Positions 14,314 to 21,452 of a stretch of 21,700 nt of DNA are shown here, in pieces. This DNA is from a virus: the IMG/VR virus record IMGVR_UViG_3300047557_002910, positions 1-21,700 of that record; one strand, given 5' to 3'. The first letter of the stretch is position 1. Each line of letters opens with the position of its first letter. The notes beneath the pieces are model-generated. The model was not told the DNA's origin. It worked only from the letters and a program-made list of their open reading frames with translations, and made no database searches. Made by a program: the position numbers and the translations under genes.

Positions 14314-14393
14314 ATAGATAGGCTATCTATCATAGCACTGATAGCTATCATATATAATATAGCTATCAGTGATAATATATCTATAATAGCTAT
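14314..14393. repeat. Left ATAGCTAT repeat block (operator / centromere candidate)
   Basis: Three copies of the palindrome ATAGCTAT start at 14341, 14359 and 14386, spaced by 18 and 27 bases. The first two are the inner ends of a perfect 13-base inverted repeat, CACTGATAGCTAT (14336-14348) and ATAGCTATCAGTG (14359-14371). ATAGATAG-G-CTATCTAT (14314-14330) is another perfect dyad. The block lies between the ribbon-helix-helix gene and the exonuclease gene and matches the block upstream of parA, so the same protein probably binds both. Confidence 0.75.
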
Positions 14394-14623
14394 ATTATAT
14401 TGAGGTACTTTTTAAGCGCGCGCTCAACAACTTCTGTTTCGCTAATGCGCTTTTTTTCTTTATCCGACAACGTATAACTATGAGCCTTGACCGCTTCAAT
14501 CAGGCTTACAGGGAGTCGAAAAATTTTTTGCTCCTTTGCCTCCTTTTCTGGGGCCTCAACACGCGAAGCCTTATCTACTGCCCCACCACTCAAAAACGCC
14601 TCTAAGTTAGGTTTACTTTTCAT
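14390..14623 (-). CDS. Ribbon-helix-helix partner of ParA (centromere-binding / repressor), 77 aa
   Basis: I start at ATG 14623 (MKSKPNLEAFLSGG), which has GAGGTG upstream and overlaps the parA stop by 11 bases; ten further codons upstream are open but less likely. The first ~30 residues are a flexible, charged tail, as in ParG-like proteins, whose N-terminal tail stimulates the ATPase. Residues ~33-77 form a ribbon-helix-helix: a strand (KIFRLPV), helix (SLIEAVKAHSYTL), then helix (SETEVVERALKKYLNII). Such proteins bind short repeats as dimers, repress the par promoter and link the DNA to ParA. The repeats on both sides of this gene are the likely targets. Confidence 0.85.
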   Translation of the reverse strand: MKSKPNLEAFLSGGAVDKASRVEAPEKEAKEQKIFRLPVSLIEAVKAHSYTLSDKEKKRISETEVVERALKKYLNII

Positions 14624-15254
14624 TGCCGTACACCTCTTTAAAAAATGCTTCAATTTCCGCTATAGCCGCTGCATCCTTGCCAAGCTCCTGAACCGTCAGG
14701 CCTTCCCCGATAGAGCGGCGAAAAGCTACGCGCTCGCTTATATGGGTGGTCAATACGTTTAAATGGTTTTCCTGTAGCCAATTATTCATAAGCGTTAAAT
14801 CCTTGGTGCGTGAATCAACCCGAGTTAGAAGCACCTTAACAACTAGATCAGGGTTGTAATCGCGGCTTAGCTCAACGACTTCCAATAGGTCAGTCATTGC
14901 CGCCGCATCCAAATAGCTAGCGCCTATAGGGACTATGGCCACGTCAGCAAGAATCAACGCTGAGCGCATTCCGGTTGTATCGTGACCCCCAGCATCAACC
15001 ACGACATGATGATATTTTTTGGCTAACTCCATGCCTTCAGAATGTATCGCCCTTCCAGCAAGGCAAATAGTAGTGGGACTTTTAGATAAATCGCCTTTGT
15101 ATTCGCGTCGCCAACCGGCCCAACTGGCCGCGCTGGCCTGAGGATCCCCGTCAATTAAAACGGTGCCCGCTATACGCGCTAACATAGTGGCGAGGTGCAC
15201 TGCGGTCGTAGTTTTACCCACCCCGCCTTTAGTATTAGTAACTGCATAAATCAT
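14613..15254 (-). CDS. parA: ParA-family partition ATPase (type Ib, ParF-like), 213 aa
   Basis: ATG 15254 (MIYAVTNTKGGVGKTT) is chosen because the deviant Walker A motif KGGVGKTT falls at residues 9-16, the usual place; 24 more codons upstream are open but run through the operator repeats. Walker A' is DGDPQAS (35-41), and 'HHVVVDAGG' is Walker B. 'VAIVPIGASYLDAAAMTDLLE' matches the switch/ATPase core. The short N-terminus without a helix-turn-helix marks a type Ib ParA. Type Ib ParA proteins position plasmids on the nucleoid. In a phage genome it indicates plasmid-like maintenance of the prophage. The gene overlaps its small DNA-binding partner. Confidence 0.96.
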   Translation of the reverse strand: MIYAVTNTKGGVGKTTTAVHLATMLARIAGTVLIDGDPQASAASWAGWRREYKGDLSKSPTTICLAGRAIHSEGMELAKKYHHVVVDAGGHDTTGMRSALILADVAIVPIGASYLDAAAMTDLLEVVELSRDYNPDLVVKVLLTRVDSRTKDLTLMNNWLQENHLNVLTTHISERVAFRRSIGEGLTVQELGKDAAAIAEIEAFFKEVYGNEK

Positions 15255-15277
15255 AAGTGATGCGCCCTTGAGATGGA

Positions 15278-15359
15278 TGATAGATAGTATATCTATGATA
15301 GCTATACTATCTATCAACGCTATCATATCTATGATAGCTATGCTATCTATTATAGCTAT
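15278..15359. repeat. Right ATAGCTAT repeat block upstream of parA (parS / operator candidate)
   Basis: Two 27-base direct repeats (15289-15315 and 15325-15351) differ at two positions and are 36 bases apart; their shared core is TCTATGATAGCTAT. ATAGCTAT starts at 15298, 15334 and 15352. A perfect 14-base inverted repeat, TGATAGATAGTATA (15278-15291) and TATACTATCTATCA (15303-15316), overlaps the first copy. It includes a TATACT -10-like hexamer on the leftward strand (15291-15286). The block ends 24 bases before the parA start, so it is well placed both as par operator and as centromere. Confidence 0.82.
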
Positions 15360-15371
15360 ATTAACATCTTA

Positions 15372-15823
15372 AGAAGTTAACATCCTAGCAATGGCGCGGC
15401 TTTGGCGGCTAAAAATAAATTTGACAGATGAGAGAAAACGGCGGCAAACTCGGTGCCAATGTGTTGAAACGGGCGCAAACGACTAATTGTGAGTGTGACC
15501 ACTACCTTTCATTTTTGATGCCAAAGTATTAGCTTTTTTTGGCATAAGGTAAGGCGCACTCATTATTTTTTTTTGTTTGTGTGCCATTGTTTAGCATGTT
15601 AACCTAACCGGACAGACGAAAAAAAAGGCCCCCATCCGCCAAGATTTGAGCCTTTTTTAGTTTGACCTAACACAAATAAAGAAACGCGGCCCCATGCCAG
15701 GGTTCCTGAGCTGTAACCGTCCTACCCACGTCCTACCCAGACATACTAACAAAATAGGTGTGTTTAACAACTATTTTTTAGCTATTGGGCGGGCGCGTTT
15801 CTTGATGAAATGAGCATAAGCCT
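15372..15823. other. Gene-free structured region between the par operon and the replication gene
   Basis: The 450 bases separate divergent units. I see: TTAACATC twice (15361, 15377); an inverted repeat ATGCCAAA/TTTGGCAT (15518-15525, 15538-15545); a bidirectional terminator (15621-15658); and a tandem pair of CGTCCTACCCA (15718-15728, 15729-15739). A 31-codon ORF (15391-15486) has no ribosome-binding site and is not called. No DnaA box of the TTATCCACA type was seen. A terminator between divergent genes implies a transcript that ends here, so an untranslated regulatory RNA for the replication gene is possible. Confidence 0.5.
15621..15658. terminator. Bidirectional intrinsic terminator
   Basis: AAAAAAGGC (15621-15629) pairs with GCCTTTTTT (15650-15658). 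The A-tract and T-tract lie on opposite sides of the stem, so a transcript in either direction ends in a U-run. It is not at the end of any recognised gene. Confidence 0.65.
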
Positions 15824-16642
15824 ATGATATTTCTGCACTCTTCGGCCCGCCGCGCCTCCTCCCAAATTATCAGTGCCCTTTCCCAATGGTTCAAAGCTGC
15901 GTTTGCATCCCGCTGCGCTCAGGTTTGGCTCTGGTACACCTCCCACGCAGAAAGCTATACCCCTTCACGCGAGCAAGCCAAACGCGAATTGGGCCTAAGC
16001 GACTGGATTTTGACGCGGTGCCTACGCGCGCTCGAACGCCTCGGCCTGGCCGCTTTGGATCTGACCCGGCAAAAGGGGAAAGCGGGGTGCTGGAAAGTGT
16101 TTAAACGCCCAGTATTTACGCCGGTTAGCACCCCGGTTTTGCCCCCCAATTTTTGCCCCCCAAACGACCCCTTTTTGCCCCCCAATAATTGCCCCCCTTT
16201 AGGTAAACAAGAAGAGTCTAAGGTAAAAAATACAAACCCCACCCCTAAGCCCGCCAAACCCGACCCCGTTTACACAGAACCAAAACAGGGAGGGGGGGAT
16301 ATTGATCGTTTTGTGGATGCTTACCCTAAAGACTTCGAGGGCAGCGAGAATCACAGGCGCTTTGCCAAGCAGCACTTGCGCAACATCCAAAAAAACATGC
16401 AGCCTAACGAATTCGATCAATTCTTAGGCGATTTGTACGCGGATATACAATACCGGTTAAAAAACTGCCACTACTGGCGCGCCGAGAACTACCGGCCCAA
16501 CGTTGCCCGCTATGTGGCTGAGGAGTTATGGCAAACCGCGATATGCCCTAAAACGCATTCTAAGCCCCATACAGCCCCCTCGCGCTCAGTGAGGGACCTC
16601 AGCCTAGCCGACGAGCTGAACGACCGAAGCTGGGCCACCTGA
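15824..16642 (+). CDS. Replication initiation protein, winged helix plus loader-like C-terminus, 272 aa
   Basis: A stop codon upstream in frame makes ATG 15824 the first good start; its Shine-Dalgarno is weak, so expression may be low or controlled. Residues ~30-95 form a helix-turn-helix/winged-helix domain (YTPSREQAKRELGLSDWILT, then RCLRALERLGLAALDL) like those of phage replication proteins of the lambda O / replisome-organiser type. Residues ~100-158 are a Pro-rich linker. Residues ~158-240 form a helical domain (DIDRFVDAYPKDFEG; NHRRFAKQHLRNIQKNM; YRPNVARYVAEELW) that could load a helicase. The linker DNA carries four GC-rich repeats, as lambda ori lies inside gene O. No Rep-3 or RepA family motif was seen. 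The exact family is unproved. Confidence 0.72.
   Translation: MIFLHSSARRASSQIISALSQWFKAAFASRCAQVWLWYTSHAESYTPSREQAKRELGLSDWILTRCLRALERLGLAALDLTRQKGKAGCWKVFKRPVFTPVSTPVLPPNFCPPNDPFLPPNNCPPLGKQEESKVKNTNPTPKPAKPDPVYTEPKQGGGDIDRFVDAYPKDFEGSENHRRFAKQHLRNIQKNMQPNEFDQFLGDLYADIQYRLKNCHYWRAENYRPNVARYVAEELWQTAICPKTHSKPHTAPSRSVRDLSLADELNDRSWAT
16137..16197 (+). repeat. Four iteron-like TTTTGCCCCCCAA repeats inside the replication gene (origin candidate)
   Basis: The G of GCCCCCC lies at 16141, 16155, 16177 and 16191, giving spacings of 14, 22 and 14 bases. The first three share TTTTGCCCCCCAA; the fourth is ATTGCCCCCCTTT. Because 14 and 22 are not multiples of three, the same DNA is read as Leu-Pro-Pro-Asn in copies 1 and 3 and as Cys-Pro-Pro in copies 2 and 4. 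The DNA rather than the peptide therefore appears to be conserved. An AT-rich stretch follows (16198-16240). The layout matches lambdoid origins. Confidence 0.7.
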
Positions 16643-16832: not shown

Positions 16833-17036
16833 ATGCGAGGCGCAAAAGCAGCCATTAAATCATTCAGGCAAGCGCACATAGACAAGGCCCACCCCTGCAA
16901 CCGCTCCAAATTTTCAGTGGCTCAGGATGTGGACCGGTTTTTAGCTAACGGGGGGATTATTCAGCGGGTCGAAACAAAATGCGCCCCCTGCAGGCCTGGC
17001 CAACAACTAGGCGAGCTATGGGGGAACCTATGCTAA
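16833..17036 (+). CDS. Small hypothetical protein with CxxC, 67 aa
   Basis: ATG 16833 follows GGAGGAG at good spacing; a GTG two codons earlier overlaps the previous gene. The protein is basic at the N-terminus (RGAKAAIKSFRQAHIDKAHP). It has 'VAQDVDRFLANGGIIQRVE', an 'FLAxGGxIxxV' pattern seen in many small phage proteins of unknown role, and ends with a CAPC motif. One zinc-binding CxxC alone is not diagnostic. It overlaps the nuclease gene by seven bases. Confidence 0.62.
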   Translation: MRGAKAAIKSFRQAHIDKAHPCNRSKFSVAQDVDRFLANGGIIQRVETKCAPCRPGQQLGELWGNLC

Positions 17037-17362
17037 CCAGCCGAACACCCACCAAAGAGGAGCGGGAGTGGCTGCAGTGGTGTTTTCAGATTCCATGCCT
17101 GGCGTGTAAACACTTTGCCGGCGTCCATGACACCCCAGCGGAGTATCACCACACGCGCGGCAAAACGGATCCCGGCGCGCACCTAGACGGGTTTTGCTTA
17201 TGCGAACGGCACCACCGTATTTCAGACACCCACCACCCCAAGCGGTGGATCAGCCGCCACGGTGACGGCAAGCGCCTATTCGAGGCGCGCTATTGCAAAG
17301 AGGGGGAATTCTTAGCCCTTCAGCGCAAAGAAGTGGAGGCGTTAAAACGATGTCTAGTGTAG
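17030..17362 (+). CDS. HNH-type / Ref-like nuclease, 110 aa
   Basis: ATG 17030 (MLTSRTPTKEERE) follows GGGGGAACCT; starts at 17018 and 16979 are open but lie inside the previous gene. Metal-binding residues are arranged as C23-x-x-C26, H40-H41, H51, C56-x-C58, H61-H62 and H68-H69, with 'YHHTRGKTDPGAHLDGFCLC' as the core. This resembles the RecA-dependent nuclease Ref of phage P1 and similar HNH proteins encoded in phage Nin-type regions. It may process recombination intermediates or host DNA. The gene is in a tightly packed cluster after the initiator. The HNH fold is likely; the Ref-like identity is less certain. Confidence 0.75.
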   Translation: MLTSRTPTKEEREWLQWCFQIPCLACKHFAGVHDTPAEYHHTRGKTDPGAHLDGFCLCERHHRISDTHHPKRWISRHGDGKRLFEARYCKEGEFLALQRKEVEALKRCLV

Positions 17363-17682
17363 TCACCACCGAGCGCATGGAAGAGGCGGTTTTGTACCTC
17401 AGCCGTACCGACGAGGCCCTAGCATCTGCGCGAGCGCGTTTTAACGGCCTGAGGGAGTCGGCCAAAGTCGTTAAGGCCATGGCTTATCAGCGCTCAATTA
17501 GTTCGGTTGCGGCCCAAAAAGAGCAGGACGCAATAAGCAGCGCCCAATACCGCGAGCACCTTAACAAGATGCAGGATGCCGAGTACGAATACATGCTTTT
17601 GCAGACCAAACGCGAAACAGAAACAGTGATCATTGACTGCTGGCGCAGCCTCAATGCCGCCCGCACCAAGGGGATCCTATGA
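17350..17682 (+). CDS. Conserved phage helical protein of unknown function, 110 aa
   Basis: ATG 17350 overlaps the nuclease stop by 13 bases and has GGAGG about ten bases upstream. The pattern is helical throughout: 'YLSRTDEALASARARFNGLR', then 'AMAYQRSISSVAAQKEQDAI', then 'YREHLNKMQDAEYEYMLLQT', then 'KRETETVIIDCWRSLNAART'. I recall phage proteins with the 'TDEE...A..A......S.......EY......DA..EYE.L..KR..A...I..WRSLNA.R' pattern encoded just before a small endonuclease, as here. Their function is unknown. The ATGA junction with the next gene argues for stoichiometric co-expression with that nuclease. Confidence 0.72.
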   Translation: MSSVVTTERMEEAVLYLSRTDEALASARARFNGLRESAKVVKAMAYQRSISSVAAQKEQDAISSAQYREHLNKMQDAEYEYMLLQTKRETETVIIDCWRSLNAARTKGIL

Positions 17683-18059
17683 CCGAAAGCAACGGCGAGC
17701 GCGCAATGGAAACCTGGCTGATTTACTTACGCCAGCCCTACGAAAAACAATACCACTTCGCCCGCCACCTCATCGGCAACCCAACCAAAGGGATCCGCGC
17801 CGCCCTGGCCAAAATAGGCCTAAAAGATTGGCGTTTTGATTTTGCACTGCCCGAGCTTAAGATTGCGGTAGAGGTCGAGGGAGGGGTTTTTGTGAATGGT
17901 GGCCACAATCGCGGGGCCTATTACACGGACAATTGCCGCAAATACAACGCGGCCACCCTGGCAGGCTGGCGGGTGTTTCGATTCACCACGGCAATGGTTA
18001 CAAGCGGCGACGCATTTTTAGTGATTAAGGCGGCAATCAATGAACACGTTACTAAATGA
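17679..18059 (+). CDS. DUF559 / Vsr-like endonuclease, 126 aa
   Basis: The ATG overlaps the previous stop as ATGA, with AAGGGGA upstream. The core 'WRFDFALPELKIAVEVEGG' gives D54 and E65-x-E67, the usual PD-(D/E)XK layout of the DUF559/Vsr superfamily. 'GGHNRGAYYTDNCRKYNAATLAGWRVFRFT' then provides the lysine- and arginine-rich helix and the final 'GWxVxRF' strand typical of the group. The length fits a single-domain enzyme. In phages such proteins may act as structure-specific or resolvase-like nucleases; the substrate cannot be read from sequence. With the HNH protein it forms a two-nuclease cluster after the replication gene. Confidence 0.83.
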   Translation: MTESNGERAMETWLIYLRQPYEKQYHFARHLIGNPTKGIRAALAKIGLKDWRFDFALPELKIAVEVEGGVFVNGGHNRGAYYTDNCRKYNAATLAGWRVFRFTTAMVTSGDAFLVIKAAINEHVTK

Positions 18060-20644: not shown

Positions 20645-20839
20645 TTAGGACTCCAACGAAATAAAAAGGCGGCAAGTGTCAGGCGTTACGCCTACGCCAG
20701 TACCAAAATCAACGCGCACAGCAGTTAACTTGGGATCCTTGCGCAGGCAATCGCGTTTACACGAACTGGATGAGCAACCGGCCAAACCGGAAAGGCACCC
20801 ACCGATGAGGGCAGTGCCTGAATCTATAACCTTATTCAT
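20645..20839 (-). CDS. Small putative lipoprotein, 64 aa
   Basis: ATG 20839 (MNKVIDSGTALIGGC) overlaps the SprT-like gene's stop by eight bases, with GGCGAGG at the overlap. The N-terminus has one Lys, a short hydrophobic stretch and the sequence LSGLAGC, which fits a signal-peptidase-II lipobox with Cys22 as the lipidated residue. SSSSCKRDC follows. The hydrophobic core is short and interrupted by Asp6 and Gly residues, so secretion is uncertain. If it is a lipoprotein it could act at the cell surface, for example in superinfection exclusion; that is speculation. Alternatively it is a small cysteine-rich cytoplasmic protein. Confidence 0.55.
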   Translation of the reverse strand: MNKVIDSGTALIGGCLSGLAGCSSSSCKRDCLRKDPKLTAVRVDFGTGVGVTPDTCRLFISLES

Positions 20840-21452
20840 CCTCGCCGCCTTCCACTTGCATGGAATCGCCGCAATTAGGGCAGGTGATATGGCCATGAGC
20901 GCCTAAAACAGTGTCAATTTGGCTCTGAGCAGTGCGGAATTTAAAAGAGCAGCCGCAGCTCACCAAAATATTGCGGTTTGTCTGCTTTTTGATGCCTGAT
21001 TTAGACAGTGTCAGCTTGGCATGTGGGATAGGGCCTAGGACTTCGATATAGCCAGCAAGTACATTTTTTAACCAAGGGCCTGCAGTGGTCGCAGTTAGTG
21101 CGCCCTCAAGGCCGCATTCACGGGCGGTCTTAGCAAAAAAACCCTTGTGCCCGCTCGCGCAATTGTCTAGCGCGTGAATTAACTCATGTACCAGTGTGGC
21201 CAAAATGCCTTCACTGTCATCTGATACAGGGGAAATAAATATTTCCGCAAAACCCTCGCAACTGACTTCCCGTCGATAGCACACGCCTAAAATTGTGCGC
21301 GAGTTGCTTTTGATACCCTGAGAAAAGCCAACGGATACTTTAATTTTGCGGTCTGCTAGGCCGCCAGTGGTGCCAGTTTTGGGCCCCAGAATATCGAAAA
21401 GAATAAAATCTGCAGCCTCGTTGAGCCATGCTTCCCTAGTAAGTGCGTTCAT
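20832..21452 (-). CDS. SprT-like zinc metalloprotease with C-terminal zinc ribbon, 206 aa
   Basis: The start has AAGAGGTC six bases upstream. The catalytic motif H89-E90-L91-I92-H93 is followed by H102 in 'CASGHKGFFAKTARECGLEG', the SprT/Spartan arrangement HExxH...H. Near the C-terminus C166-x-C168 and C191-x-x-C194 form a zinc ribbon (VSCGCSFKF; ITCPNCGDSM), as in many bacterial SprT-like proteins. The eukaryotic relative Spartan cleaves proteins crosslinked to DNA; the role of phage versions is not settled. It is the first gene of the leftward operon, directly behind a probable promoter region, so it should be made early. Confidence 0.88.
   Translation of the reverse strand: MNALTREAWLNEAADFILFDILGPKTGTTGGLADRKIKVSVGFSQGIKSNSRTILGVCYRREVSCEGFAEIFISPVSDDSEGILATLVHELIHALDNCASGHKGFFAKTARECGLEGALTATTAGPWLKNVLAGYIEVLGPIPHAKLTLSKSGIKKQTNRNILVSCGCSFKFRTAQSQIDTVLGAHGHITCPNCGDSMQVEGGEDE

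Follow-up and report, generated by a model that had tools for sequence, protein, structure and literature searches.

The window analysed here is a virus record of 21,700 bases. Tail-type genes occupy its left side, followed by a leftward recombination block (SSB, ERF and exonuclease), a ParA cassette and then rightward genes, the first of which is an ORF for 272 amino acids at 15824-16642. The ParA gene (14613-15326, minus strand; ParA_partition, E 5.8e-48) and a small unassigned ORF (14390-14653, also minus strand) have AT-rich arrays of 9-bp repeats (ATAKCTATN-like) on both sides, at 14341-14389 and 15271-15360. The ParA gene and its flanking arrays resemble a partition cassette in which the repeats act as centromere; in that case the virus would be a phage-plasmid. 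Neither a P-type helicase loader nor a helicase was found beside the 272-aa ORF; the next ORFs have no assignment or are nuclease-like, including a Ref-like RecA-dependent nuclease at 16979-17362 and a DUF559-like gene (phrog_503) at 17679-18059. Near the right end, a minus-strand ORF (20832-21452) matches phrog_6361, whose function is not known (E 7.8e-31), and gives a weak match to SprT-like metallopeptidases (Pfam, E 0.003).

The ORF at 15824-16642 (plus strand) and a single-sequence AlphaFold2 model of its product point to a probable phage replication initiator of 272 amino acids, with a winged-helix N-domain, a disordered linker and a helical C-terminal part. The model is confident for the N-domain only, with pLDDT of about 91-94 in the helices near residues 31-70 and below 50 in the linker. 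Low-confidence residues 78-157, which hold the repeats described below, are followed by predicted helices at 160-165, 174-191, 194-214 and 227-240. By VIA-align and an initiator N-domain profile, the putative winged-helix DNA-binding domain covers residues of about 22-95 (15887-16108, plus strand); the AlphaFold2 helices place the C-terminal part, presumed to contact a helicase or loader, at residues of about 160-240 (16301-16543, plus strand). VIA-align returned Z scores up to a middling 7.0, mostly to winged-helix or MarR-type domains, and Foldseek alone returned no significant match for the protein. The AlphaFold2 and VIA-align predictions thus back the earlier note, which had proposed a winged-helix N-domain, a repeat-bearing linker and a C-terminal domain.

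Against a profile of 12 phage initiator N-domains, the 272-aa protein outscored 2000 of 2000 of its own shuffles, over residues 35-75; the single-sequence E of 8e-5 corresponds to only 8.9 bits, with the best shuffle at 8.8. Pfam, PHROG and NCBIfam contained no match at E<=0.001, and no known initiator family matched at a convincing E-value. The O-like families phrog_678, 391, 345, 270 and 1032 gave no match of note, only the weak N-domain profile signal. Reading the C-terminal part as the common YPK-type initiator C-domain was unsupported, as there was no sequence match to that profile. We found no homologues in viral contigs, species genomes (contigs), phages or plasmids; single-domain searches of phages at a loose limit yielded chance-level matches only, and a search of 369 genomes yielded only marginal, chance-like ones. 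On the predictions above, it is likely, but not proven, that the protein is a winged-helix initiator.

A search of the 21,700-base window on both strands located the motif TTGCCCCCC at four positions and no others, namely 16139, 16153, 16175 and 16189. The expected count is 0.36, and four copies were reached in none of 100 shuffles. The core is preceded by TT in three copies, where the full motif is TTTTGCCCCCC, and by AA in the fourth, which reads AATTGCCCCCC. All four are on the plus strand. Exact motif searching places copy 1 at 16137-16147 and copy 3 at 16173-16183; copies 2 (16151-16161) and 4 (16187-16197, with the 9-bp core exact and the 5' flank changed) are in the other codon frame. 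On recount, the earlier note was correct both in its G positions (16141, 16155, 16177 and 16191) and in its 14/22/14 spacing, and alternate copies do lie in different frames with a changed peptide, as it had claimed: the frames are 0, 2, 0, 2, read as VLPPN, FCPPN, FLPPN and NCPPL. The only other cluster in the window with at least three copies of an exact 9-mer per 250 nt belongs to an AT-rich array that lies upstream of parA.

Codon choice does not account for the repeats. When the peptide was held fixed and synonymous codons were resampled with phage codon usage, four copies arose in 0 of 200,000 draws (maximum three), and when the gene's own synonymous codons were permuted, in 16 of 50,000. 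None of 100 codon permutations matched the gene in an exact 9-mer; with an 11-mer and one mismatch allowed, the window signal is weak (10 of 100 permutations) and the gene is unexceptional. A repeat-finder comparison put the similarity of 16137-16162 and 16173-16198 at 87%, with an in-frame offset of 36 bp, and the second pair of copies (3-4) appears to derive from the first (1-2) by an in-frame duplication of that length. The alternation of frames would therefore need only one out-of-frame pair and this duplication, not four independent events. Dyad symmetry was not evident in the window iterons, where the best dyads matched 3-5 of 7 pairs. Shuffled sequences did as well for copies 1, 2 and 4, and the signal of copy 3 was weak; a lambda iteron scored 6/7 (19/500 shuffles). 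Immediately 3' of the iterons is an AT-rich stretch at 16198-16242, a candidate unwinding element that the earlier note had also pointed out. The enrichment is modest, at about 67% AT versus 45% for the gene, and of the gene's two most AT-rich 45-nt stretches the other is equally AT-rich.

Since no homologue of the 272-aa protein was found, the layout was looked for in other phages instead. A sample not picked for repeats, drawn from phrog_678 matches in 274 genomes, provided 14 scorable ORFs. Seven of these 14 O-like prophage initiators carry at least four copies of one exact 9-mer, a result matched by 0 of 100 synonymous permutations, and in six of the seven, copies on the same strand occupy more than one codon frame. 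In Bordetella phage PHB09, which came to our attention because it shares a downstream gene with the window, the gene annotated as replication protein O contains AAAGGGTGC at least six times in the linker, in two frames and mostly with a spacing of 20-22 bp. The plan that the earlier note had likened to lambda O, with copies in several frames, therefore recurs in unrelated O-like phage initiators. Linkers of the prophage O-like initiators L268 (about 1843-1959), L280, L269, L270 and L281 contain 4-6 repeats in two or three frames, the clearest case being GACACCAAAACGGTGTC in L268, read as HQNGV and DTKTV; several of these repeats are dyads like the lambda iterons. Frame-cycling repeats were also seen in the L221 ORF, a late-activator-like HTH protein (phrog_836) that belongs to no initiator family: its C-terminal tail, near residues 160-190, is encoded by five 13-bp repeats that cycle through all three codon frames.

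By scanning for TTTTGCCCCC pairs and TTTGCCCC triplets, we identified such arrays in the linkers of five distinct winged-helix initiators, namely L012/L258, L013, L018 (=L025, L026), L024 and L185, all with the TTTTGCCCCC core on the opposite strand relative to the gene. Other matches were mostly pentapeptide repeats, FFAPP tails or intergenic arrays. Viral contigs lacked the exact 14-bp pair TTGCCCCCCN5TTGCCCCCC; two of these contigs carry tandem 11-bp units of CCTTTTGCCCC outside clear genes (L006, 1361-1414; L014, 1373-1426). When a scrambled control array, TTCGCCTC, was put through the same search, the 69 loci recovered included two winged-helix initiator linkers (L335 and L364), compared with the five distinct initiators of the test scans, and we rejected the idea that TTTGCCCC arrays are special markers of initiators. 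Because an arbitrary control motif is also found in initiator linkers, linker arrays are common, the architecture is general and the motif varies by phage, and the window does not represent a separate origin type. The suggestion of an origin type with its own sequence specificity does not survive this result, given also that many motifs occur in initiator linkers and that five other initiators share the TTTTGCCCCC core. A literature search for the motif string returned unrelated papers only.

The earlier note had proposed to ask whether the repeats are conserved while the linker changes. Run on the L012/L286 pair rather than on the window gene, this check found the linker DNA to be unusually constant. 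Among codons for the same residue, the DNA is identical in 27 of 28 in the iteron stretch versus 63 of 87 in the N-domain (Fisher p 0.007), and, with the AT-rich part included, in 42 of 45 versus 103 of 144 (p 0.002). Six more distant homologues of the L012 initiator, L287-L292, keep the N-domain and differ in their linker repeats: L287 and L292 carry other repeats (AACTTAGTT, GTTGCAAAA), and no 9-mer array was detectable in L288-L291, suggesting a rapid turnover of site specificity among L012-type homologues.

Gene O of lambda and of Stx phages contains the origin in its central part, and its product binds the iterons and contacts their G-tracts, with an AT-rich stretch adjoining; synonymous iteron mutations abolish replicon function although O is unchanged (PMC7466680, PMC6022878). 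Lambda iterons have a central A-tract in addition to the G-tracts contacted by O (PMC7466680), and in lambda-type origins an O dimer binds each iteron, a hyphenated inverted repeat of 18 bp (PMC6022878). The window shares with these systems the position of the iterons (four in lambda and six in Stx phages) mid-gene, between an N-terminal DNA-binding domain and a C-terminal domain, a stretch on one side that in the window is modestly AT-rich, and the G-tracts and A-tracts in the iterons. To call the C6 tract unlike lambda iterons was therefore an overstatement, as they too contain G-tracts, and the real difference is the missing dyad: the window sites are 9-11 bp long, head-to-tail and non-dyad, and are spaced 14/22/14, in contrast to the 18-bp inverted repeats of lambda. 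Also unlike lambda, no P-like gene follows the window initiator, and the searches returned no O-family match. As in lambda-type origins, the putative sites, four exact linker cores, lie inside the initiator's own coding sequence, and the winged-helix N-domain, disordered linker and helical C-terminal part predicted by AlphaFold2 and VIA-align are the layout of the broad kind. Since neither the dyad nor the P-type neighbour was found, we place the window with the broad kind, self-encoded iterons, and not with the lambda-type ori/O.

A further parallel is offered by protein O of Bordetella phage vB_BbrS_PHB09 (phrog_678, HTH_36), a winged-helix initiator with non-palindromic linker iterons in two frames and, as in the window, a DUF559-like gene (phrog_503) downstream. 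However, the two proteins are unrelated by BLASTP, the motifs differ, the PHB09 spacing is mostly 20-22 bp, and a P-like loader follows the PHB09 initiator. The initiators L012/L258 (equivalent to L285/L286), L013, L018, L024 and L185, of phrog_270/1032/678 type, resemble the window in that GGGGGCAAAA, its core in reverse complement, forms arrays in their linkers in more than one frame. Unlike the window, these viral-contig initiators have the core on the opposite strand with respect to the gene, mostly 21-27 bp spacing and membership of recognisable families, and the first site of L012 is a near-perfect dyad.

Taken together, these results lead us to consider it likely that the window contains an iteron origin embedded in the gene of a very divergent winged-helix phage initiator, the repeats being the predicted binding sites of that protein's own N-domain. 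Several results count against this reading: the searches for homologues and for a convincing initiator family came back empty, the C-terminal part does not match the common C-domain, a P-like loader or helicase is missing next door, the frame alternation reduces to one duplicated pair, L288-L291 show no array, and the signal fades with the looser 11-mer. The main competing idea, that the repeats lack any DNA-level function and belong to a proline-rich, low-complexity linker enlarged by local slippage and a 36-bp duplication, is in our opinion unlikely. Copies 1-2 and 3-4 are indeed alike and 36 bp apart, and the encoded peptide is itself repetitive (LPPNFCPPNDPF / LPPNNCPPLGKQ). However, the 9-bp core is kept in all four copies across two frames despite fairly even use of proline and leucine codons in this phage (0/200,000), the few differences between the duplicated units all fall outside the core, and a neutral origin is improbable given how many other initiators show this layout.

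Slightly less probable still, in our estimation, is that the initiator binds these sites as an autoregulatory or copy-control element and that the replication start is at another place, such as the non-coding stretch of roughly 460 bp that separates parA from the initiator gene (about 15361-15823). Iteron plasmids commonly have their origin upstream of rep, this phage has a plasmid-type ParA cassette, and the non-coding region is AT-rich (about 0.6); but no iteron-like 9-mer cluster was seen in about 15361-15823, and sites deep within a coding region would be a poor location for an operator. It is very improbable that a G-quadruplex, rather than a sequence read by a protein, is the functional element: the minus strand does have four G6 and two G4 tracts within about 70 nt, but the exact TTG flank is preserved in every copy and the comparable linker arrays in L267, L268, L287 and L292 lack G-tracts.

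For the preferred reading, an origin inside the gene of its initiator, we infer binding, melting, helicase recruitment and origin activity. The repeats would be iterons for the winged-helix N-domain encoded by the same gene and would form the core of the phage replication origin. Once bound to the four head-to-tail sites, the initiator would wrap or strain the DNA; the AT-rich stretch at 16198-16242 would then open, and the replicative helicase or its loader would be brought in by the C-terminal part. The DNA motif could be kept while the frame changes because the amino acids of a disordered linker can be sacrificed to hold the sites. The design of an origin within its initiator is already known from lambda; the protein and the motif are new to that design. 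More tentatively, the protein may be the first member seen of an initiator family whose sequence has no relation to known phage O or Rep proteins. It would recognise non-palindromic TTTTGCCCCCC half-sites, spaced by 14 bp within its own gene, and would act for a phage-plasmid that carries a ParA partition cassette; we regard this as possible, with the balance of probability against it.

An origin that lies inside the gene of its own initiator allows a replication module to move between phages as one piece. Judging from our survey, a self-encoded origin seems to be present in many O-like phage initiators but not in all of them, with motifs that differ among phages. We suggest a rule for predicting origins in uncharacterised phages, which is to seek short repeats in several codon frames in the disordered linker of the initiator. 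The window is a case in which sequence homology fails, yet the repeats still point to both the initiator and the origin.
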